NCBI GenBank assembly: GCA_001941225.1
Contig: MSHM01000017.1
Location: forward strand, 1-53,965
Reading direction: 5' to 3'
DNA length: 53,965 bases
Source: Oscillospiraceae bacterium Zagget12
GTDB taxonomy: Bacteria; Bacillota; Clostridia; UBA1381
Below the pieces are notes generated by a model that saw only the letters and a list, made by a program, of their open reading frames with translations, was not told the DNA's origin and did no database searches. Made by a program: the position numbers and the translations under genes. Below are positions 8,174 through 20,397 of this stretch, one piece after another. Every line of letters starts with the position of its first letter. Positions within the stretch are counted from its first letter, which is position 1.

Positions 8174-8765
8174 GATTTGCTATGCCATAGTGCGGTTTGC
8201 GCTGCTGTTTGTATTCAGACTTAAATTTGTCGGACGTGAAAATCTGCCGAAAGAGGGCGGAGCGATTGTCGCGTTTAACCATACAAGCAACTGGGATCCT
8301 GTCGTGGCGGGACTGAGCAGCGGCAGAAAGCTGCGCTTTATGGCTAAGGAGGAGCTTTTTGAAAACCCCGTTTTCGGCGCGCTGATAAGCAGATTGGGCG
8401 CGTTTCCGGTTCACAGGGGCAAGGGAGATATAGGAGCTATAAAATCATCGCTCAAAATCCTCTCCGAGGGCGAGGTAATGCTTATGTTTCCCGAGGGACA
8501 TCGTATAAAGGACGGCAGAAAGGTAAAAGCTAAGCCCGGAATAGCGCTTATCGCCCAAAGGGCAAAGGTTCCGGTCGTTCCGGTGTGTATTTCCGGAAAA
8601 TACGCGTGGCTGCATAAAATAACGGTTACATACGGCAAGCCCATATCCCTTGAGGAATATTACGGCAAAAGGCTTGAACAGGAAAAAATACAGGAAATAG
8701 CGGACGGTATTTTAGACAGAGTGAGAGCTTTGGACACGGGCGGCGCGAAAGGAATAACGGAATGA
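8163..8765 (+). CDS. plsC: 1-acyl-sn-glycerol-3-phosphate acyltransferase (PlsC family)
   Basis: PlsC acylates lysophosphatidic acid at sn-2 to form phosphatidic acid at the inner face of the membrane. The 200-residue protein has an N-terminal hydrophobic segment (ICYAIVRFALLFVF) for membrane attachment, the catalytic HX4D box in AFNHTSNWDPV (residues about 39-46), a second motif around GAFPVHRGKGD, and MFPEGHRIKDG, the glycerol-phosphate binding block. The start overlaps cmk by 11 bases and the stop overlaps the ispH/rpsA start by 4 bases (ATGA), so the three are translationally coupled. Acyl-donor preference is not visible. Confidence 0.92.
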   Translation: MFYRICYAIVRFALLFVFRLKFVGRENLPKEGGAIVAFNHTSNWDPVVAGLSSGRKLRFMAKEELFENPVFGALISRLGAFPVHRGKGDIGAIKSSLKILSEGEVMLMFPEGHRIKDGRKVKAKPGIALIAQRAKVPVVPVCISGKYAWLHKITVTYGKPISLEEYYGKRLEQEKIQEIADGILDRVRALDTGGAKGITE

Positions 8766-10801
8766 TAAAGGTAGCTAAAACGGCGGGATTTTGTTACGGC
8801 GTAAAGAGAGCTGTTGACGGAGTGTACAGAGAAATCGAGAACGGCAAAAAAATCGCCACTCTCGGACATCTTATCCATAACCGCCAGGTGATAGAGGATT
8901 TGGAGCGCAAAGGCGTGTATTCATATGACAGCGTATCCGATATACCCGAGGATTACACCGTCGTTATACGCGCGCACGGAGTGGCAAAAAGCGTGTATGA
9001 AAATATGGGCGGAAGAGAATATATAGATTTGACTTGCCCGTTTGTTTCCAAGATTCATAAAATCGTATCGGAGCATCACAAAAAAGGGTATAAAATAGTA
9101 ATTGTCGGAGATAAAAATCACCCCGAGGTAATAGGCATAAACGGGTGGTGCTGCGGCAACGCAATCATAATAAATGATAAAAACTATGAAATTGACGAAA
9201 ATTTACGCGAAAAAGACATCTGTATTGTAGCACAAACCACAATAAATAAAGAATTTTTTGGTGAAATCGTACAAAATATAAAAAAAACTTGCAAAAGTAC
9301 CCTGGTTTTTGATACAATATGTAGTGCGACGAAGGATAGGCAGAAAGAGGCAGCTGAACTTTCCGAAATTTCGGATATGATGATTGTCATTGGCGGACGT
9401 GAAAGCTCCAACACGCGTAAGCTGTATGAAATTTCAAAGCGCAGTTGTTCCGAAACCTATCATATCGAAACATTTGAGGATTTACCTCAAACAAAAACAT
9501 ATAATAAAATAGGTATTACCGCGGGAGCGTCCACGCCGGGCGGTATTATCGAGGAGGTAGTAAAGGCTATGAGTGAAAATCTAAAAAATGAGGAGAACTT
9601 TGCGGAGCTGTTTGAACAGTATGAGAGCAAAACTCTGAATAACGGGGACATTGTTGAGGGAACAGTTGTAGAGGTTCGAAATAATGAAGTCATCGTTGAT
9701 CTGGGTGGCTTTAAGTATAACGGACAATTAGCGGCTGATCAGCTGACTGATGACCCGGCACTTAAGCCGTCTGATGTTGTAAAAGAAGGCGAGACAATTA
9801 AGGTTTACGTTGTTGGCGTAAATGACGGCGAGGGAAAAGTAGTTTTATCAAGAAAGAAATTGGTAGCTATGGAAAGCTGGAACAAAATCAAAGCGGCTTA
9901 TGAATCGGGCGAAACTTTGGAAGGAAAGATTATAAAGGCCGTTAAGGGCGGAGTTATCGCTCTTACAGATGGTTCGCAGGTGTTTATTCCCGCGCGTCAG
10001 GCGTCAGGCAGATTTGTACAGGACCTTCAGAGCCTTGTCGGAACAACAGTAAATTATAAGATAATCGAGATTGACGAAAGAAGAAAGCGCGTCATAGGTT
10101 CTGTAAGAGTTATCCTTGAGGCGGCAAGAAAAGAAAGAGAAGAGAAATTCTGGTCGGAAGTTGAAGTCGGCAAGAAATATCAGGGCACTGTTAAGTCGCT
10201 TACATCATTCGGAGCATTCGTTGATATCGGCGGAGTAGACGGCCTTGTTCATATAAGTGAGCTTTCGTGGAATAAGATAAAGCACCCATCGGAAGTTGTA
10301 AAAGAGGGCGATGTTCTTGATGTTTACATCAAGGATTTGAACACGGAAACAAAGAAGATTTCTCTCGGATTCAAGAAGATTGAGGACAATCCGTGGACAA
10401 TCGCACAGTCAAAGATAAATATCGGCGATGTTGTTAAATGTAAGATTGTACGTATGATGCCGTTCGGCGCGTTTGCGGAAATTATGCCGAATGTAGACGG
10501 TCTTATTCACATTTCGCAGATTGCGGACAGAAGAATCGGCAAGCCGGAGGACGTGCTTACAATAGGCGAAGAGGTTGAGGCTAAGGTTACCGACCTTAAC
10601 TGGGAGGAAAAGAAAATCAGCCTTTCAATACGTGCGCTTATTCCGGTACCGGAAAAGGAAGAAAAGGCTGAGGAAGAAATTCCGCAGGTTCCGCAGAAGG
10701 CAGAAACTCTTGTTTATTCAACAGACCCGGACGTAGAGGTTGAAGAGGCAATCGAAATCGAGCCTGAGGAAACTACAGAAGATACCGCAGATGCCGAATA
10801 A
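8762..10801 (+). CDS. ispH: Fused 4-hydroxy-3-methylbut-2-enyl diphosphate reductase / ribosomal protein S1
   Basis: This is a single 679-residue protein joining two functions. Residues 1 to about 283 are IspH, the last enzyme of the MEP isoprenoid pathway; its three [4Fe-4S] cysteines are C11 (AGFCYGVKRA), C92 (LTCPFVSK) and C187 (FDTICSATKD). After a short linker come four S1 RNA-binding repeats starting near residues 293, 383, 468 and 553 (for example GTVKSLTSFGAFVDIGGVDGL). An acidic tail closes the protein. The frame is continuous with no internal stop. Codon choice changes from IspH-like to the more biased pattern of highly expressed genes around 9,600, so some S1 may come from an internal start. 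Such fusions are known in clostridia. Confidence 0.95.
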   Translation: MIKVAKTAGFCYGVKRAVDGVYREIENGKKIATLGHLIHNRQVIEDLERKGVYSYDSVSDIPEDYTVVIRAHGVAKSVYENMGGREYIDLTCPFVSKIHKIVSEHHKKGYKIVIVGDKNHPEVIGINGWCCGNAIIINDKNYEIDENLREKDICIVAQTTINKEFFGEIVQNIKKTCKSTLVFDTICSATKDRQKEAAELSEISDMMIVIGGRESSNTRKLYEISKRSCSETYHIETFEDLPQTKTYNKIGITAGASTPGGIIEEVVKAMSENLKNEENFAELFEQYESKTLNNGDIVEGTVVEVRNNEVIVDLGGFKYNGQLAADQLTDDPALKPSDVVKEGETIKVYVVGVNDGEGKVVLSRKKLVAMESWNKIKAAYESGETLEGKIIKAVKGGVIALTDGSQVFIPARQASGRFVQDLQSLVGTTVNYKIIEIDERRKRVIGSVRVILEAARKEREEKFWSEVEVGKKYQGTVKSLTSFGAFVDIGGVDGLVHISELSWNKIKHPSEVVKEGDVLDVYIKDLNTETKKISLGFKKIEDNPWTIAQSKINIGDVVKCKIVRMMPFGAFAEIMPNVDGLIHISQIADRRIGKPEDVLTIGEEVEAKVTDLNWEEKKISLSIRALIPVPEKEEKAEEEIPQVPQKAETLVYSTDPDVEVEEAIEIEPEETTEDTADAE

Positions 10802-12245: not shown

Positions 12246-13274
12246 ATGAGAAAACTTATAAAAAAATTAAGTGATATGCGCGGCATATCGGGGTATGAAT
12301 ATTATCTTACGGATAAAATAGCGAAGATGTTTTCCGAATACTGCGACGAGGTGAAAATCGACCCGTTGGGCAGCGTTATAGCCGTAAGGCACTGCGGCGC
12401 TTATAACGCGCCGAGGCTTATGATAGAGGCGCATTGCGACGAAATAGGTCTTATGGTAACCTCGATAACCGAAAATGGCTATCTTACCTTTGCCAATGTC
12501 GGCGGAGTGGACGAAAGAACACTTCCTCAAACCGAGGTAACCGTGCACGGCAAAAAGGATATATGGGGTGTTATAGGTATAAAGCCCGCGTATCTTCTTG
12601 AGCAGGGTAAAACGGTTAAGATAAAGGATATGGCTGTGGATACCGGCTTGGACGCCGAAACGGTAAGGGAAATAATATCCGTGGGCGACAGCATAACGCT
12701 CGCTCAGTCCGTCGGAACGCTCGGCAAAAAGCAGTTCAGCGGAAAATCCCTGGACGACAGGGCAAGCGTCGCCGCGATAATGTCCGTAATGAAAAAAATA
12801 AAAGACGCGGACTTGAATATTGACGTGTACGCGGTTGCCGCCGTGCAGGAGGAGGTCGGCTGCCGCGGAGGAAAAACCACCGCATACGGAATAAATCCCG
12901 ATATGGCGGTGGCTATTGACGTCTGCCACGGCGTGACGCCGGATAACAGCGACAATGCCTTTGAGGTAGGCACCGGCACGGTTTTGTCTGTGGGACCCAA
13001 TCTTCACCCGAAACTTACAGACGCGCTGTTTGCTACGGCTAAGGCGCATAATATCAAGGTAAGCACGGACGTTGACGGCGGCAATACCGGTACCGACGCG
13101 TGGGAGATACAGACCGCCCGCGACGGAATACCGACGGCACTGTTGTCAATTCCGCTCAAATATATGCACACATCGGTGGAAACTCTTGCCGTATCTGACG
13201 TAAAAGCGACGGCAAAGCTGCTCGAGCAATTTATAAAGGAACAGAAGGGGGACATAAAATGGCTGAACTTCTGA
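12246..13274 (+). CDS. M42 family metallo-aminopeptidase (copy 1, complete active site)
   Basis: M42 enzymes are cytoplasmic two-metal aminopeptidases that usually form 12-subunit tetrahedral particles trimming short peptides. The 342-residue protein has every expected ligand: His and Asp in IEAHCDEIGLMV, bridging Asp in SLDDRASVAA, catalytic and metal Glu pair in AVQEEVGCRGG, Asp in AIDVCHG, and the final His in KYMHTSVE. GNTGTDAWEI matches the family substrate loop. ATG 12246 is one base after the murD stop. Its 3' end overlaps the next M42 gene by 16 bases, with that gene's ribosome site (AGAAGGGGG) inside this gene. It may form mixed particles with its two paralogues (inference). Confidence 0.92.
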   Translation: MRKLIKKLSDMRGISGYEYYLTDKIAKMFSEYCDEVKIDPLGSVIAVRHCGAYNAPRLMIEAHCDEIGLMVTSITENGYLTFANVGGVDERTLPQTEVTVHGKKDIWGVIGIKPAYLLEQGKTVKIKDMAVDTGLDAETVREIISVGDSITLAQSVGTLGKKQFSGKSLDDRASVAAIMSVMKKIKDADLNIDVYAVAAVQEEVGCRGGKTTAYGINPDMAVAIDVCHGVTPDNSDNAFEVGTGTVLSVGPNLHPKLTDALFATAKAHNIKVSTDVDGGNTGTDAWEIQTARDGIPTALLSIPLKYMHTSVETLAVSDVKATAKLLEQFIKEQKGDIKWLNF

Positions 13275-14269
13275 AAAGGCTGTCCGAGGCAAACGGAGTA
13301 AGCGGCAATGAAACCGCCGTGAGGGAGATAATCGCGGCTGAAATCAAAAATGATATTGACGATATAATTATTGACAGTATGGGTAATCTTATCGCGTATA
13401 AAAAGGGCGCGGATTCCTCAAAGGCGATAGCCGTAACCGTTAATACGGACGAGGCGGGATTTATCGTAAGCGGCATAACCGATAAGGGATATATTAAATT
13501 CAAGCCTGTCGGAAATATCGACCCGAGGAAAATAATATCCAAACGCGTCAATATAGGCGGCAAAATAAAAGGCGTTATCGGTATGAAGGCGATACATCTT
13601 CAGACAAAATCCGAAAGAGAAAACGTCGTGCCGGTGTCAAAGCTGTTTATAGACATAGGCGCGAAAAATAAAGCCGACGCGGAAAAAAACGTCAATTTGG
13701 GCGATTACGTGACATTTGACACCGAATTTGAGGCGATAGGCGCCGCCGTAAAGGGCAAGGCTCTTGAAAGGAGCGGCGAGTGCCGCGCGCTTATACAGGC
13801 GCTTAAAGAGAACTATCCTTACGACGTTTACGCCTGCTTTTTGGCACAGAGCGAGGTCGGCGCGAGAGGCGCGTTTATCGCGTCGCATAGGCTGAATGTT
13901 GATGCCGTTCTGACTGTTTCCGCCGCCGATACAACCGATATGCACGGCTGTGAAACGGAAAGCGGCGGCACTGCTTTGGGAGACGGCGCGGTTGTAAATT
14001 ATTCGGACAAAACGGCTATAGCGGATAGGAATCTGACCGACCGTATGATAAAGCTTGCGCGCAGGGAAAAAATCAAAGTGCGCGAAAGAGCTTTAAAAAA
14101 CGCCGTCGGCGACCTGGGCGCAATGCAGACCGGGGGCGCGGTGAGCTTGGGCGTCGTTATTCCTTGCAGATATTCCCGCTCGCCGGTATCGATAATGTCA
14201 AGGAACGATATAACCGCCGCGACGGAATATATAAGCCTATTTCTAAACAGAATCGGAGATATGATATAA
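13259..14269 (+). CDS. M42 family paralogue lacking catalytic residues (copy 2, probable pseudoenzyme)
   Basis: The 336-residue protein is a full-length M42 fold protein with an intact reading frame, but key residues are replaced compared with its neighbours. The metal His is Asn62 (VTVNTDEAG), the bridging Asp is Glu170 (ALERSGEC), the catalytic Glu of the EE pair is Ser198 (LAQSEVGARG), the Asp of AVDV is lost near residues 220-221, and the last His is Arg307 (RYSRSPVS). Only Asp64 and Glu199 of the usual set stay in place. It overlaps copy 1 by 16 bases and is followed at once by copy 3. A structural or regulatory subunit of a mixed M42 particle is the likeliest role (inference); random decay is less likely given its full length. 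Confidence 0.85.
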   Translation: MAELLKRLSEANGVSGNETAVREIIAAEIKNDIDDIIIDSMGNLIAYKKGADSSKAIAVTVNTDEAGFIVSGITDKGYIKFKPVGNIDPRKIISKRVNIGGKIKGVIGMKAIHLQTKSERENVVPVSKLFIDIGAKNKADAEKNVNLGDYVTFDTEFEAIGAAVKGKALERSGECRALIQALKENYPYDVYACFLAQSEVGARGAFIASHRLNVDAVLTVSAADTTDMHGCETESGGTALGDGAVVNYSDKTAIADRNLTDRMIKLARREKIKVRERALKNAVGDLGAMQTGGAVSLGVVIPCRYSRSPVSIMSRNDITAATEYISLFLNRIGDMI

Positions 14270-15259
14270 ATGGATACTTTGAAAATATTAAAGGATATGA
14301 CGCAGATAAACAGCGCGTCCGGAAACGAAACCGCGATAAGGGAGTATATAAAAACCGAATCGGAAAAATATTGCGATGAAGTATATGTTGACGCGATGGG
14401 TAATCTTACGGCTCATAAAAAGGGCGGGGGAAAGAAAATTATGTTCGCCGCTCATATGGACGAAATCGGAATAATAGTCACTGATATAGACGATAAGGGA
14501 TTTATACGTTTTTCCGCTGTCGGCGGACTTAATATCCGCAATCTTGTAAATCTTCGGGTGCGTTTTTCAAACGGCACCGAGGGCGTTATAGGCGCCGAGG
14601 AGGATAAGTTCAAGGAAAAACCGGCGCTGAGTAAGCTGTATATAGACATCGGCTCGGCGGATAAAAAGACGGCGCAAAAACAAATATCCGTGGGAGATAC
14701 GGCGGTGTTTGTCGGCGGATTTGTAAGATGCGGCGATAATGTTATATCAAAGGCGCTTGACAACAGAGCCGGCTGCGCGGTAATATTAAAGGCATTAAGT
14801 GAAATAAAGGAAAGCCCGAACGATTTGTATTTTGTGTTCACCGTTCAGGAGGAGGTAGGACTTCGCGGAGCAAAGACGGCGGCGTTTGATATTGAACCCG
14901 AAATTGCGGTAGCCGTTGACGTTACCGATACGGGCGATACCCCGTCCGCGCCGACTATGGCGGTGGAGATGGGAAAGGGCGCGGCTGTAAAGGTAATGGA
15001 CCGCTCGATAATGTGCGATTCTCTTGTCCGCACGGTGATGATAGAAACGGCAAAGCGGGAGGGTATACCCTATCAGCTTGAAATAATGACGGACGGCGGA
15101 ACCGACGCGGGAGCGATTCATCTTACGCGCGCCGGAGTAAAAACCAGCGGAATATCGATTCCGACACGGTATATTCATTCGCCGTCGGAAATGGCAAATA
15201 TAAACGACATAGAAAATTGTGTCGCTCTTGTACGCAGCTTAGCGTCACAGCAGTGGTAA
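14270..15259 (+). CDS. M42 family metallo-aminopeptidase (copy 3, complete active site)
   Basis: The 329-residue protein keeps the full M42 set: AAHMDEIGIIV (His, Asp), KALDNRAGCA (bridging Asp), TVQEEVGLRGA (Glu pair), AVDVTDTGDTPS (Asp) and RYIHSPSEM (His). TDGGTDAGAIH is the conserved loop near the active site. It follows the degenerate copy with no gap (stop then ATG), so translation is probably coupled. It resembles the degenerate copy more than copy 1 at several loops (NETAIREYI and NETAVREII near the N-terminus), suggesting copies 2 and 3 arose by a later duplication. The preferred substrate residue cannot be read from the sequence. Confidence 0.92.
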   Translation: MDTLKILKDMTQINSASGNETAIREYIKTESEKYCDEVYVDAMGNLTAHKKGGGKKIMFAAHMDEIGIIVTDIDDKGFIRFSAVGGLNIRNLVNLRVRFSNGTEGVIGAEEDKFKEKPALSKLYIDIGSADKKTAQKQISVGDTAVFVGGFVRCGDNVISKALDNRAGCAVILKALSEIKESPNDLYFVFTVQEEVGLRGAKTAAFDIEPEIAVAVDVTDTGDTPSAPTMAVEMGKGAAVKVMDRSIMCDSLVRTVMIETAKREGIPYQLEIMTDGGTDAGAIHLTRAGVKTSGISIPTRYIHSPSEMANINDIENCVALVRSLASQQW

Positions 15260-15274
15260 ACGGAGGTGTATTTT

Positions 15275-15928
15275 GTGGCAACGTGGGGAGTGCATTTAAG
15301 AGTAGCAAGATTATTTCTTAACAGGATTGACAAAGAGCATCATAGGGAATTTGTAATCGGGAGCGTCGCTCCCGACTGCGGTTACGGAGAAAAGGACAGT
15401 TTCGGTGAATTTACGCCGCCGCCTACGGTAACGCATTGGTCGCCGAGCGGAATGAAACGCGACTGCCGGTATAAGGATTTTTACGACACGTATCTTACGG
15501 GAGAAAAAAACGATGATTATTGGTTTTATCTCGGCTATTACGCGCATCTTCTGACGGATATAATGTGGTCGGTAACGATGTATATGCCCACCCGCATTAA
15601 ATACGCGGACGAGTACGCGAAAAATCCGGAATTTCTTAAGGTTATAAAGAAGGATTGGAACGATATAGACGCTGAGCATCTCAAAAGCCTCAGAGAGCAC
15701 CCCGCGCTTGATATACTCAAAAACGCGGGTGAGGTCAAGGACTATCTTACATATTACGAGAAGAATCAGCTGACGGTTCAGATTAAATTTATCGCCGATT
15801 ACTATGAAACATTTAAAGGCAATATCAACAGGGAATACGAGTATACAACGCCCGATGAAATAAATAATTTTGTCGAATGTGCGTATGAACTGCTATGTAT
15901 GGTTTTGGAACAGCAGGAGCTTATCTGA
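15275..15928 (+). CDS. Zinc-dependent phospholipase C-fold protein, cytoplasmic
   Basis: The 217-residue protein matches the zinc-dependent phospholipase C fold. The N-terminal ATWGVHLRVA gives Trp/His ligands, IGSVAPDCG an Asp, THW a His, and GYYAHLLTDIMW the His-x3-Asp helix that binds the metal cluster. No signal peptide is present, unlike secreted clostridial toxins of this fold, so it probably acts inside the cell; the substrate is unknown. I chose GTG 15275 because GGAGG (15262-15266) lies 8 bases upstream; a GTG at 15266 would overlap that site. It ends the murD-M42 operon, and its stop codon lies in the terminator stem shared with the convergent gene. Confidence 0.72.
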   Translation: MATWGVHLRVARLFLNRIDKEHHREFVIGSVAPDCGYGEKDSFGEFTPPPTVTHWSPSGMKRDCRYKDFYDTYLTGEKNDDYWFYLGYYAHLLTDIMWSVTMYMPTRIKYADEYAKNPEFLKVIKKDWNDIDAEHLKSLREHPALDILKNAGEVKDYLTYYEKNQLTVQIKFIADYYETFKGNINREYEYTTPDEINNFVECAYELLCMVLEQQELI

Positions 15929-15944
15929 TTTCAGATAAGCTCCT
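15915..15944. terminator. Shared hairpin between convergent genes, containing both stop codons
   Basis: AGGAGCTTATCTGA (15915-15928) is perfectly complementary to 15931-15944. The plus-strand stop TGA is 15926-15928 and the minus-strand stop TGA is 15931-15933, separated by two bases at the loop. T tails are weak on both sides. Confidence 0.7.
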
Positions 15945-16971
15945 TTCTGTATTTCGGTATGTTCCCGTTGTTGTTAAAAGCAATAACCGCGCTTGTGTGA
16001 TTATCAATCGGAGTATCGAGGTCGGTGACTTGCCCGCCGCCGATAATGCCGCCGCGTATAACGGTTTGCGGCTCGGTATAACCGGCATCGCTCAAAAGCG
16101 CGGAAATCGGCATACCTATCGGAACACGGTAATTATTCGGTAAAAGTATATCATCGCCGGAAACGGTTACGATTTTTTCCGTAACGGGCATTTTTGTCCT
16201 AAACAGCTCCGATATGTTTAGGAGCGTTTCTGAGGAAATAACCGCGCAATTCGCGTTTTCGACATCGCGTCCGGTCAGCACCTTGACGAGCTTGTCGGCG
16301 CGGCTCTGCGGATAGCGCGCCTTTAATGAATACAGGTCAATATCCGTGTTGTATCTGAGGCGGTATTTAAAATCCGAGAAAATCTTTCTTGTGTCATTCT
16401 CAACGCCTATCGCGGCTTTTTTTATTCCCAGAATACGCAACGCGATATTCAGTCCGTCAAGAATTTGCTCCGTATTGCCGAGAGCCGCCGCCTGCGGCGA
16501 TGAAACATACGGGTCGCTGTCGAAACAGCAGACAATAAGCCGGTCGGGCGTTTTTTGCAGAGAAAGCAGTATGTGAGCCGGAACGCCGCTTGCCGCCTCG
16601 CATATTCCGCCCTCGCGTATAATCCAGAGCATTTCGCGGTTTGTCAGCTGCCCGATTGCCTTGCCGAAATCCGCCGGCGGCGCACTCTCGTCCAGGAAAT
16701 CGTTCTCTATTGAAATCATATTTTCGGATATATCCGTTACGGTGCCGGAAACCGCGCTGTATATCGGCAGAGCGTCAAAGCTGTCAAAATCGGCTGTTTT
16801 TTGACCCTTTAGTACGCGGTCGCCGACGTTGACAATGGGATTTAACAAAATTTTGCCCTGCCTCAGATTGTAAAAATATATGGGAGAGGGCAGCGGCGTT
16901 TTTATTTGCGCCGACGCGGAAAAACCGTTGCGCTTTTTGTACTTTTTCGCTCCTTTAAAAGAAATTGACAT
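15931..16971 (-). CDS. RnfC-like protein without Fe-S domain
   Basis: The 346-residue protein follows the order of the RnfC N-terminal half: a barrel-sandwich segment (NVGDRVLKGQKTADFD, SAVSGTVTDI), a 51-kDa-type nucleotide-binding region (SLQKTPDRLIVCCFDSDPY to the middle) and a C-terminal SLBB-like block (YRVPIGMPISALLSDAGYTE, GGIIGGGQVTDLDTPI). It stops where RnfC normally continues into two CxxCxxCxxxCP clusters, which are absent. ATG 16971 follows GGGAGGTCATATT; longer starts have no ribosome site. No other rnf gene is nearby, so it cannot be part of a local Rnf complex. It may bind NAD(H) or flavin, but its function is unknown. Confidence 0.72.
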   Translation of the reverse strand: MSISFKGAKKYKKRNGFSASAQIKTPLPSPIYFYNLRQGKILLNPIVNVGDRVLKGQKTADFDSFDALPIYSAVSGTVTDISENMISIENDFLDESAPPADFGKAIGQLTNREMLWIIREGGICEAASGVPAHILLSLQKTPDRLIVCCFDSDPYVSSPQAAALGNTEQILDGLNIALRILGIKKAAIGVENDTRKIFSDFKYRLRYNTDIDLYSLKARYPQSRADKLVKVLTGRDVENANCAVISSETLLNISELFRTKMPVTEKIVTVSGDDILLPNNYRVPIGMPISALLSDAGYTEPQTVIRGGIIGGGQVTDLDTPIDNHTSAVIAFNNNGNIPKYRKELI

Positions 16972-16996
16972 AATATGACCTCCCTTGCTGATAATG

Positions 16997-17025
16997 ATTT
17001 TACCATACCTGCGCGGAAAAATCAA
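16997..17025 (-). promoter_or_regulatory. Promoter of the RnfC-like gene
   Basis: On the minus strand TTGATT (17020-17025) and TAAAAT (16997-17002) have a 17-base spacer, 26 bases before the chosen start codon. Confidence 0.65.
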
Positions 17026-17088
17026 ATAATTAAGACTTAAATCCCCAAAATCCCCAATAAATCCATCTTTTCGGCTTTGATTCCGTAC

Positions 17089-17403
17089 GGGCACCCCTTG
17101 TGTTCACCCGCTCACCGCCGCGAACCCTAAGCCTTCCCCTTGGGGGGTGAACGATTTGCTTTGCAAATCGTAGGCTTAGAGCCGCAGGCTCGTAGCCGTT
17201 GCCAAAAAGGTGTCGGCGCAGCCGACGGATGAGGGATTGCGCTGTATAAAAAATTAAGCTGTATTTCCGGCAACGCTCTGCAAGGCTCCCCTAATAGTAG
17301 GGGCGCCCATTGGGCGCCCGCGGGCGGGCAATGCCCGCCCCTACAAACACAGCCGGCAAATCCGCCTCGTAGGGGCGACCCTTGTGGTCGCCCGCCCACC
17401 GCC
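17089..17403. repeat. Block of consecutive GC-rich palindromes (non-coding)
   Basis: At least six short inverted repeats fill the gap between the RnfC-like gene and spo0A. They are 17151-17171 (9-bp stem, TTT loop), 17179-17191 (5 bp, GCA), 17212-17226 (6 bp, GCA), 17301-17319 (8 bp, ATT), 17322-17340 (8 bp, AAT) and 17373-17393 (8 bp, CTTGT). The fourth and fifth are enclosed by GTAGGGGCG / CGCCCCTAC (17297-17305 / 17336-17344). Bases near 17089-17119 and 17373-17403 are diverged copies of one unit. GC content is far above the flanks. An open frame across it on the minus strand has low-complexity sequence and no ribosome site. This looks like an intergenic repeat family. Confidence 0.8.
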
Positions 17404-18192
17404 TTATTTAAGCGTCAATCTTATCCTGTCCGCCACCATAGCGATAAACTCCGAATTTGTCGGCTTACCCTTGCCGGTATGGATTGTATACCCGAATATC
17501 TCGTTCATAATTTCGGGCTTTCCTCTGCTCCACGCCACCTCTATCGAATGGCGAATTGCCCTTTCAACTCGGCTGGCGGTGGTGTTATACGCCTTTGCTA
17601 TTTCGGGATAAAGCTGCTTAGTTATGAAATTAAGCAAGTCCATATTTTCCACAACCATCATAATAGCACTTCTGATATACTGATAACCCTTTATATGCGC
17701 GGGTACGCCAAGCTCGTGAATAAAGTCCGTAACGACCGTTTCCAAATCAATCTCCTCATTCTTTTGAGTCACCGCAAGCGATTTCGGCGCGGCGGGCACG
17801 GCGGCAACATTCGGAACCAAAACAATATCCCGTATTACCTCGCATATGCGCTCGTCACTCTGCGGTTTTAAAAGACAATAATCTATGCTTGAGCTTACCG
17901 ATGACGCCATATTAATAGCTATTGATGAAATGGAATATACAATTATTTTCGGCTTTTTCGGAAGAACCGTATTTTGCAGCCTTTTTAAAACTCCTATTCC
18001 GTCGAGCTTTGGCATCACCAAATCCAGTATTACCGCGTCGGGTTTGGTTTCAAGTATGAGTTCGTATGTTTCATTGCCGTCGTGCGCGGCGGCGATAACC
18101 GTCATATCAGATTGCTCGTTGATGTGCTGTGATAATTCCGTCACAAGATCCTCATTGTCGTCTGCTATTAAAACAGATATTTTGTTGTTCAT
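17404..18192 (-). CDS. spo0A: Sporulation master regulator Spo0A
   Basis: Spo0A is the phosphorelay-controlled transcription factor that commits cells to sporulation. The 262-residue protein has a receiver domain (residues 1-125) with acidic pocket D11/D12, phospho-acceptor D57 in [13 protein letters not shown], and LLKPQ as the conserved Lys region. A linker follows, then the Spo0A-specific DNA-binding domain with [18 protein letters not shown] and [19 protein letters not shown], the recognition helix. GGAGG lies just before the ATG on the minus strand. Spo0A-type C-terminal domains are essentially confined to spore-forming Bacillota. No spoIVB gene is adjacent in this window, although that is the common clostridial neighbour. 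Confidence 0.97.
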
Positions 18193-18405: not shown

Positions 18406-20397
18406 TTACCTTTTACTTTTGCGCAAATACAGCGCTCTGAGTGAATTTGCTACCGCAATCAGAGATACGCCCACGTCTGCGAATATAGCGAGCCACATCG
18501 TGCTGAGTCCGAACACGCTGAGAATCATAACCAATACCTTTATGCCTATCGCGAATATGATATTCTGCTTAATAATTCGCATTGTTTTAGCGGAAATCTT
18601 AACCGCTGAACAGAGCTTTGACGGCTCATCGGTCATAAGCACCACATCAGCCGCCTCAATCGCACTGTCGGAGCCGATGCCGCCCATTGCGATACCTATA
18701 TCCGAGCGCATAAGAACGGGAGCGTCGTTAATTCCGTCGCCTACGAAAGCGACACTTTTCTTTTCTGACTTGGCGGAAAGAATTTCCTCCAGCTTGCTTA
18801 CCTTATCCTGCGGCAGCAGCTGCGAATATACGGTTTCAATTCCGATTTGATTTGAAACGTAATCGGCTGATTCTTTAATATCTCCGGTGAACATAACGGA
18901 TTTTATGCCGAGCTTTTTAAGCTCGTTTACCGCCGAGGCACTGTCCGCTTTTATCTTATCCGATATTCCTATGTAGCCGGCGAATATGCCGTCTACGGAT
19001 ATATATACCGTGCTGCCGCGGAAATCGGATTTTACGAATTGAATGTTGTTTTGCGACATCAGCCGTTCGTTTCCGGCAAGAACGCGTTTGCCGCCTATAA
19101 CCGCGCTTATGCCGGTTCCGGCTGTTTCGGTATAGTCGGAAATGAGAGCGGCGTCTATATTGCCATTGTAGGCGCTCTTTACGGATTCCGCAATAGGGTG
19201 AGTTGAATAAAATTCCGCGTATGCCGCATATTTCATCAATTCATCTTCGGGTATTTCCGAATAAATTTTATTTACCGCAAATGTGCCCTCCGTAAGAGTG
19301 CCGGTTTTGTCAAATACAACGGTGCTTAGCTTTGAAAAACCCTCCAGGCAGTTGCCGCCCTTGACGAGTATTCCGTTTTTGGACGCGCAGCCTATTCCGG
19401 CGAAAAATCCCAATGGTATGGATACCACAAGCGCACACGGACAGGAAACCACAAGGAATATAAGTCCGCGGTAAATCCAGGTTTTAAATTCACCCAATGA
19501 AAGCAGGGGAGGAACAAACATTACGATTACCGCAAGCAGCACAACTATCGGAGTATAATATTTCGCGAATGTTGTGATGAATTTTTCCGATTTCGCTTTT
19601 TTGCTTTGAGCGTGCTCCGCCATATCAAGAATTTTTGAAACGGTGCTTTCGGAAAATTCCTTTTCAACCCTTATATGAATGGGCGAACCCGTATTCACGC
19701 TGCCGCTTAATACGCCGTCGCCTTTGGCGGCGCGGCGCGGTACGCTCTCTCCCGTAAGCGCCGCCGTGTCGAGATATGTTTCGCCTTGCGAAATACTTCC
19801 GTCAAGCGGAATTTTTTCGCCGGGCTTTACCACTATTATGTCGCCTATATTTACGCTTTCGGGCGATACTCTTTTAAGCTGTCCGTCTTTTTCTATGTTG
19901 GCATAGTCCGGGCGTATATCCATAAGCTGTGAAATCGAGTTTCGGCTTTTTTCCGTTGCCCTTTCCTGCAAAGCCTCTCCGATTTGATAGAAAAGCATTA
20001 CCGCGACCGCCTCGGGGTGCTCGCCGATTATGAACGCGCCGATGCTTGCGACGCTCATAAGAAAGTTTTCGTCAAACAGATGTCCCTTGAATATGTTTTT
20101 CACTGCGTGCCACAAAATGTCATATCCGAGAATTAAATACGAAATAATAAATAAAATATCCGATGTATATTTCCATAAATTCAATATAAATTTTTCGGAC
20201 AACAGGGCGGCAATAAATAAAGCTCCTCCCGCAATCAATCTTATAATGAGAGCTTTGCCCTCGTGATGTACGTGGTCGTGACCGCAGCCGCAGGCTGAAT
20301 GCTCGTGGTGATGCTCGTGACCGCAGCCGCAGACTGAATGTTCGTGGTGATGCTCGTGATGATGTTCATCGGCGCGGCATACATTATCTTTTTTCAT
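18406..20397 (-). CDS. zntA: Zn/Cd/Pb-exporting P1B-type ATPase with His/Cys-rich N-terminus
   Basis: This ATPase pumps soft divalent metal ions out across the membrane. The 663-residue protein has no HMA domain; instead residues 1-48 form a repeated His/Cys tail (HHEHSVCGCGHEH, then HHEHSACGCGHDH), a likely metal-binding region. Next come membrane helices, the actuator motif LTGESVP, the CPC transport motif in SCPCALVVSIP, phosphorylation site DKTGTLTEG, the nucleotide-binding HPIA motif (STHPIAESV) and GDGINDAPVL. The CPC motif places it in the Zn/Cd/Pb group; Cu is less likely but not excluded. It is controlled by a consensus promoter under an inverted-repeat operator. No ArsR/SmtB repressor gene is adjacent. 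Confidence 0.93.
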   Translation of the reverse strand: MKKDNVCRADEHHHEHHHEHSVCGCGHEHHHEHSACGCGHDHVHHEGKALIIRLIAGGALFIAALLSEKFILNLWKYTSDILFIISYLILGYDILWHAVKNIFKGHLFDENFLMSVASIGAFIIGEHPEAVAVMLFYQIGEALQERATEKSRNSISQLMDIRPDYANIEKDGQLKRVSPESVNIGDIIVVKPGEKIPLDGSISQGETYLDTAALTGESVPRRAAKGDGVLSGSVNTGSPIHIRVEKEFSESTVSKILDMAEHAQSKKAKSEKFITTFAKYYTPIVVLLAVIVMFVPPLLSLGEFKTWIYRGLIFLVVSCPCALVVSIPLGFFAGIGCASKNGILVKGGNCLEGFSKLSTVVFDKTGTLTEGTFAVNKIYSEIPEDELMKYAAYAEFYSTHPIAESVKSAYNGNIDAALISDYTETAGTGISAVIGGKRVLAGNERLMSQNNIQFVKSDFRGSTVYISVDGIFAGYIGISDKIKADSASAVNELKKLGIKSVMFTGDIKESADYVSNQIGIETVYSQLLPQDKVSKLEEILSAKSEKKSVAFVGDGINDAPVLMRSDIGIAMGGIGSDSAIEAADVVLMTDEPSKLCSAVKISAKTMRIIKQNIIFAIGIKVLVMILSVFGLSTMWLAIFADVGVSLIAVANSLRALYLRKSKR

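Follow-up and report, generated by a model that had tools for sequence, protein, structure and literature searches.

Three genes of the M42 peptidase family lie in tandem in the genome of Oscillospiraceae bacterium Zagget12 (assembly GCA_001941225.1), at positions 12246-15259 of the plus strand of contig MSHM01000017.1, of which positions 1 to 53,965, in the following called the window, were analyzed. The three open reading frames (ORFs) were named A, B, and C. The middle one has lost catalytic residues which both of its neighbors have kept, and the question raised by this locus is why such a copy is retained. The initial annotation had seen in it a passive or regulatory subunit beside two complete active ones. 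This description could not be upheld, as A lacks the His of a chamber loop and B keeps that loop. It is regarded as probable from the comparison of the sequences that the active sites of A and B are composite ones, completed by loops swapped between the two, and that the dead B is retained because it donates its loop to A.

Gene A (copy 1; 12246..13274) encodes an M42 peptidase of 342 residues with an intact binuclear metal and catalytic site, gene B (copy 2; 13259..14269) an M42 pseudoenzyme of 336 residues, and gene C (copy 3; 14270..15259) an M42 peptidase of 329 residues with an intact catalytic site and a short loop which, like that of the other C copies inspected, has no conserved His motif. 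All three exceed the cut-off of the Pfam M42 model (PF05343; 23.2 bits) with 275.5, 199.0, and 312.5 bits, respectively, and match it over nearly its full length, which confirms the tandem. In an NCBIfam search, every match remained below its cut-off. Elsewhere in the source genome (77% complete), no further M42 matches were found. The frames of A and B overlap by 16 bases (13259..13274, plus strand), from which translational coupling is inferred, and the stop codon TAA of B abuts the start codon ATG of C, in agreement with the coupled operon annotated before. A starts 1 base past the stop of a MurD-like gene.

The catalytic residues were compared with those of PhTET2, whose metal ligands are H68, D182, E213, D235, and H323, plus E212 (PMC8993905), the latter being the general base (PMC3511314). 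A and C carry the complete H-D-D-E-E-D-H set. In B, E212 is replaced by S198, H68 by N62, D235 by S221, and H323 by R307, which are the four replacements reported initially (Asn62, Ser198, Asp near 220, and Arg307). A fifth one is D170E, with Glu instead of the bridging Asp, and the equivalent of E213 is retained as E199. Live copies of B have Glu at position 221, where this B has Ser, and a further alteration affects the GG.D motif near 280. As a set, the five metal ligands and the catalytic Glu are present in A and C and absent from B. Judging from these residues, B is an M42 homologue and not a peptidase. An AlphaFold2 (AF2) model of B has a mean predicted local distance difference test (pLDDT) score of 90.9, which is lowest at residues 111-120 (mean 62) and 231-240. 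In Foldseek, the predicted structure shows a catalytic and a TET-type dimerisation domain (matches 9qr6, 4p6y, 5ds0, and 2wyr), and its template modeling (TM) scores to the TET structures 2wyr, 1y0r, 2wzn, 4p6y, and 9qr6 are 0.88-0.94, with 9qr6 at 0.94.

That copies 1 and 3 are fully equipped, as annotated initially, holds for the metal and catalytic residues of both, but not for the loop of A. At residues 114-116 of A (P0001; 12585..12593, plus strand), PAY stands where PPH is conserved, and the loop His is missing although the metal center is intact. B retains D64, E65, and the loop K110-A-I-H113 ... E119-R120, which spans residues 110-120 (KAIHLQTKSER; 13586..13618, plus strand). As A is without the loop His while B keeps that loop, an active site shared by both agrees better with the sequences than a scaffold does.

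Triads of A, B, and C with one catalytically dead member are found in many gut-associated Clostridia, and a column test was applied to 59 columns conserved in live B (at least 93% of 76) and to 56 dead-B loci not selected by their loop. The loop residues H113 and K110 are each present in 56/56 dead B, as are D64, E65, and several structural Gly/Asp columns. Of the catalytic positions, E198 is found in 0/56, E221 in 2/56, H62 in 16/56, H307 in 20/56, D170 in 24/56, and E199 in 40/56. In an alignment of 28 dead B copies taken from two families, the 27 invariant columns include K110, A111, H113, and R120. A chamber loop with a conserved His occurs in all 163 live and all 59 dead B copies. The conserved D-R pair following the bridging Asp (P0002, residues 171-172) is altered in dead B, position 171 being Arg in 37/56 and Ser in 11/56.

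The loop of A behaves differently. PPH is present in A of 156/163 triads with a live B, vs. 1/59 with a dead B, and any loop His in 160/163 vs. 10/59. After dropping the 18 loci from a loop-motif scan and the 7 best hits of a dead-B profile, PPH remains in 134/140 vs. 1/57. The loss is specific, as 33 of the 37 columns of A conserved in live-B triads are kept in at least 80% of the dead-B triads, which rules out a general relaxation of A in dead-B lineages. The columns lost are P115 and H116, joined in family f16 of the same class by P114 and D132, the latter being lost only there. In C of dead-B triads outside f16, 60/62 conserved columns are kept. Triads with a dead C and a live B served as control, and here A keeps PPH in 20/22, both exceptions belonging to family f36. 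C itself lacks the loop motif, an isolated His being found in the examined section of 10/171 live C copies. The loop state of A is associated with the catalytic state of B and not with that of C, which speaks only indirectly for a His acting on the neighboring subunit. The dead-C loci listed are L068 (genome G035), L117, L131, L121, L135, L124, and L330-L338, in which A keeps PPH except in L330, L332, and L333; the dead C of L121 and L135 is too diverged to appear among the class-level PF05343 matches.

The arrangement is most reduced in genus g36 of f16, where a live A with a shortened loop stands beside a dead B with an intact loop. Each genome of this genus has two M42 matches, no C was found beside A-B, and the place of C in G091 is taken by a frame which, judged by eye, resembles DNA polymerase I.

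From the sequence states, their distribution, the selection on B, and the paired loss observed here, we infer that A and B co-assemble, that the loop acts in trans, and that it may be swapped within an A:B dimer rather than between dimers. A, B, and C would assemble into a mixed aminopeptidase of the M42 (TET) type. In the ancestral state of the triad, both A and B would have had a metal center and a loop, and C no His loop, with the loop of A completing the site of B and that of B completing the site of A. In the lineage of the window, the metal center of B would have been lost, and the loop of A, left without a site to serve, would have decayed, unless it decayed before the death of B. The loop of B, still needed by the site of A, would be held under strong constraint, such that A, with catalysis but without the loop, and B, with the loop but without catalysis, would form complementary halves of one composite site. 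C would be a further active subunit from the same operon, and g36 the end point of this course. That the catalysis of C needs the loop of B is not claimed; C lacks the motif, but the C-type TmPep1050 works alone. In Bacillus subtilis, a dimer model of the paralogues YtoP and YsdC is consistent with in-cell cross-linking (PMC10090944), and together with about six B deaths accompanied by a matching change in A this strengthens the case for a mixed assembly beyond the initial annotation. In broader terms, the balance tips slightly towards a peptidase site split over two gene products, with the metal center in one and the substrate-binding loop in the other and neither fully competent alone, which would have arisen about six times from a reciprocal A-B triad and would have become a two-gene system in f16.

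PF05343 matches were found in 16/16 genomes of the genus and 60/61 of the family. Of the 15 other genomes of the genus, 14 have the three M42 frames in a cluster, and in the remaining one (G007) A and C are on separate contigs and no B was recovered. In all 14 other genus genomes with a recovered B, its catalytic Glu is missing, by which a window-specific or assembly artefact is ruled out. Within the family, 62 of the 68 loci (window included) comprise three M42 frames, some cut by contig ends, and the remaining six derive from three genomes in which the locus is divided between contigs. The genes follow the order A-B-C, apart from four loci of g9 (L056, L069, L075, and L081; g9 is a genus), where A and B are adjacent and C lies upstream, with about 1.4 kb between its frame and that of A. 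One genome, G021, holds two complete triads (L053 and L054), and the proteins of L053 are identical to those of G017, a genome of a different genus, so that contamination or wrong binning of the contig is suspected.

Beyond the family, the triad is present in the order and the class, with many genomes lacking it. PF05343 matched in 58/69 class genomes and the dead-B profile in 272/391; in the wider phylum, a live B was matched in 66/119 genomes, the best 30 loci all being A-B-C. A tree of 128 M42 rows resolves three clean groups A, B, and C. The triad is an old one, found across the phylum, and it may even predate the phylum, since in Thermotoga the proteins best matched by A, B, and C are 1vho, 2fvg, and 4p6y, respectively. 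We take 1vho to be TM1048 of Thermotoga maritima, and TM1048, TM1049, and TM1050 to be neighboring genes. 2fvg carries a B-type IHL loop, TM1050 has no His there, and the catalytic Glu of 2fvg is intact, unlike in dead B. The active-inactive-active order, for which a search in other Clostridia had been proposed, was found throughout the clade of the window, but it is one of several outcomes; in other families it is C that is dead, and in some both B and C.

Of the genera sampled in the family, nine have a live B and eight a dead one. The 29 dead B rows form one clade (Shimodaira-Hasegawa-like approximate likelihood ratio test, SH-aLRT, 98), as do the A rows of the same genomes (99), and in a tree of 153 A rows the clade of the window's dead-B genomes has a support of 100/99. 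On this tree, six B-death changes are needed. Catalysis seems to have disappeared from B on about six occasions, one of them in the common ancestor of eight genera, that of the window and seven related ones. Family f16 is mixed, with B live in g87, g89, and g90 and dead in g36, g78, g86, g88, and g91. Single deaths occurred in f36 (L333) and f53 (G180), the B of G180 keeping the catalytic Glu and lacking E199 and the last His; in G037 (g10), only the catalytic Glu is lost. Former ligands other than this Glu vary between genera. The catalytic Glu of C disappeared separately in f11, f18, f26, f36, parts of f16, f49, and f51, and in G035, and in some families B and C are both dead. Of 222 distinct triads, 221 have a complete catalytic set in A, and in the remaining one A is cut short.

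In all six B-dead groups of the A tree, the A rows lack PPH except in genome L077, where it was kept or regained. On supported branches, four independent pairs gave 2.8 changes in the same way, 0.0 opposite, and 1.2 without difference for PPH, and the weaker result of 1.4, 0.0, and 2.6 if the measure is no His at all, counts too few to reach 0.05 by either measure. A maximum likelihood (ML) comparison of dependent with independent change of A loop and B state gave p ~1e-8, assuming a tree of A alone that is rooted at its midpoint, a flat prior at the root, and B death without reversal. It fits B death depending on A loop loss (log-likelihood, lnL, -52.3) about as well as the reverse (-53.0).

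Several of these and other points weigh against a loop donated by B. The tree-based support comes from few independent events, the independent pairs are weaker with the measure of no His at all, and the ML test is an own model with the known weakness of such tests. PPH is missing from A in 7/163 live-B triads (four of these seven still with a His there), the sister of the dead-B genome in f36 is without PPH although its B is live, and the 10/59 dead-B triads with some His left in A fit poorly as well. Residue 198 of dead B is not random, which a loop donor does not explain. In the cryo-EM structure of PhTET2, the loop His is more than 20 A from the active site (PMC8993905). PhTET2-PhTET3 mixed particles were modeled from homodimeric blocks (PMC4220976), which would imply a loop swap between dimers, or none. 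CelM of Clostridium thermocellum and TmPep1050 show activity when produced singly (PMC3511314), and the loop of TmPep1050 has no His, so the loop cannot be required in every M42 enzyme.

On the other side stand findings from PhTET2 and the related M18 family. In PhTET2, deletion of the loop or mutation of H123 reduces activity, and in some structures the loop His lies near the site of the adjacent subunit (PMC8993905). In human DNPEP, an M18 aspartyl aminopeptidase, His170 from the opposing dimer subunit completes the active site, also within a dodecamer, and the His170Phe mutant is inactive; the authors expect the same swap in M42, where the His is conserved (PMC3472314). Unlike the proposed A-B pair, this enzyme is homomeric, each subunit being donor and acceptor.

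Whether dead B is simply heading to a pseudogene, with the changes of its neighbors as a coincidence of lineage, can be judged from omega (dN/dS; Nei-Gojobori, own script). In dead B, its median is 0.157 (range 0.091-0.206; 29 near-kin pairs, 25 loci), which exceeds A (0.096) and C (0.074) beside it; in live B it is 0.082 (only five pairs). However, omega does not exceed 0.206 in any of the 29 pairs, one death common to eight genera has persisted, and 57 of 59 distinct dead B span nearly the whole B model, the other two being one that is cut by a record end and one of 326 residues that is diverged at the C-terminus. In dead B of G154, G160, G164, and G174, one stop was flagged within the matched stretch; as the B frames there have 328-337 residues, these stops are probably terminal. 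Owing to purifying selection, the shared death, and the near-complete length, decay to a pseudogene is rejected as extremely improbable. Copy 2 is of conserved length, as first described, and B is a full-length pseudoenzyme retained under purifying selection and conserved over speciation. Such retention could also be purely structural, B having become part of an obligate heteromer by constructive neutral evolution before its site decayed, and being kept for assembly, gating, or stability, with the loop for chamber packing. The conserved structural Gly/Asp columns, the TM score of 0.94 to 9qr6, and the repeated death of C while the loop of A stayed are in line with this. It predicts neither the specific loss of PPH in A beside dead B nor a mobile chamber loop among the most conserved parts of dead B, and is thus considered rather unlikely, though the most serious of the alternatives.

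A lower probability is given to the view that the site of B has changed to a non-hydrolytic one and that B serves in regulation or inhibition or as a decoy for peptides. E199 in 40/56 and D64 and E65 in all dead B would suit such a function, as would the loss of the catalytic Glu alone in at least one genome of g10 (G037). Residue 198 is Lys, Arg, or His in 48/59 distinct dead B, which looks like selection for a basic residue where the metal used to be bound, perhaps standing in for the lost metal; this uniformity seems to exceed what drift would suggest. The other former ligands vary by genus, unlike one conserved new site. Equally improbable are separate homomeric particles of A, B, and C with different substrates, the loop change of A and the decay of B being two adaptations to one change in peptide supply. 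Among the matches listed, the PDB entries of M42 are single-gene particles except 9a5r, and CelM alone forms a 407 kDa species (PMC3511314). But a substrate-binding loop would be useless to a homomer of dead B, the site of A would still need its own loop, and the pairing of the two losses, seen in about six groups, would have arisen by chance.

Compared with known systems, M42 TETs (PhTET1/2/3, TmPep1050, and MJ0555) are similar in fold, as seen with the B model, and in size, A and C also share their metal and catalytic residues, and A of live-B triads shares the PPH loop with PhTET2, TET3, and MJ0555. Differences are the missing catalytic Glu and metal ligands of B and the presence of three fixed paralogues in one operon, with loop and metal center divided between subunits. 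PhTET2-PhTET3 likewise places two M42 paralogues in one 12-subunit particle, but was assembled in vitro and modeled from homodimers, and no dead subunit is mentioned in the available part of the paper (PMC4220976). YtoP-YsdC (PMC10090944; 9a5r) also consists of Bacillota M42 paralogues modeled as a dimer, but comprises two genes only. In the literature searched (mostly without subscription papers), no report of M42 pseudoenzymes or of clostridial mixed M42 particles was found.

Inactive paralogues are kept in protease complexes such as the proteasome beta subunits, ClpP/ClpR, and the mitochondrial processing peptidase. Unlike in these, the inactive copy here seems to keep an accessory element no longer present in the active one.

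Upstream of the MurD-like gene, a single ORF (8762-10801) combines an IspH (LytB) domain with four S1 RNA-binding stretches. Downstream of C, an ORF with a GTG start 6 bases past the stop of C (15266-15928) matches zinc-dependent phospholipase C (PF00882) and possibly belongs to the same transcript. Beside the operon on the minus strand lie genes for an RnfC-like protein (15931-17094), a response regulator with a Spo0A C-terminal domain (17404-18192), which suggests spore-forming ancestry, and a P-type ATPase with a His-rich N-terminus (18406-20397).

The family is an ordinary one and the arrangement unusual, namely a variant of TET aminopeptidases whose dead subunit looks like a trans-acting loop donor. 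If this is true, a dead enzyme subunit may be retained for the sake of a single transferable part of an active site, and the clostridial M42 genes would be better expressed together than singly. Donor and acceptor would have been separated by evolution more than once, which would offer a clean test of whether the loop His serves its own site or that of its neighbor.

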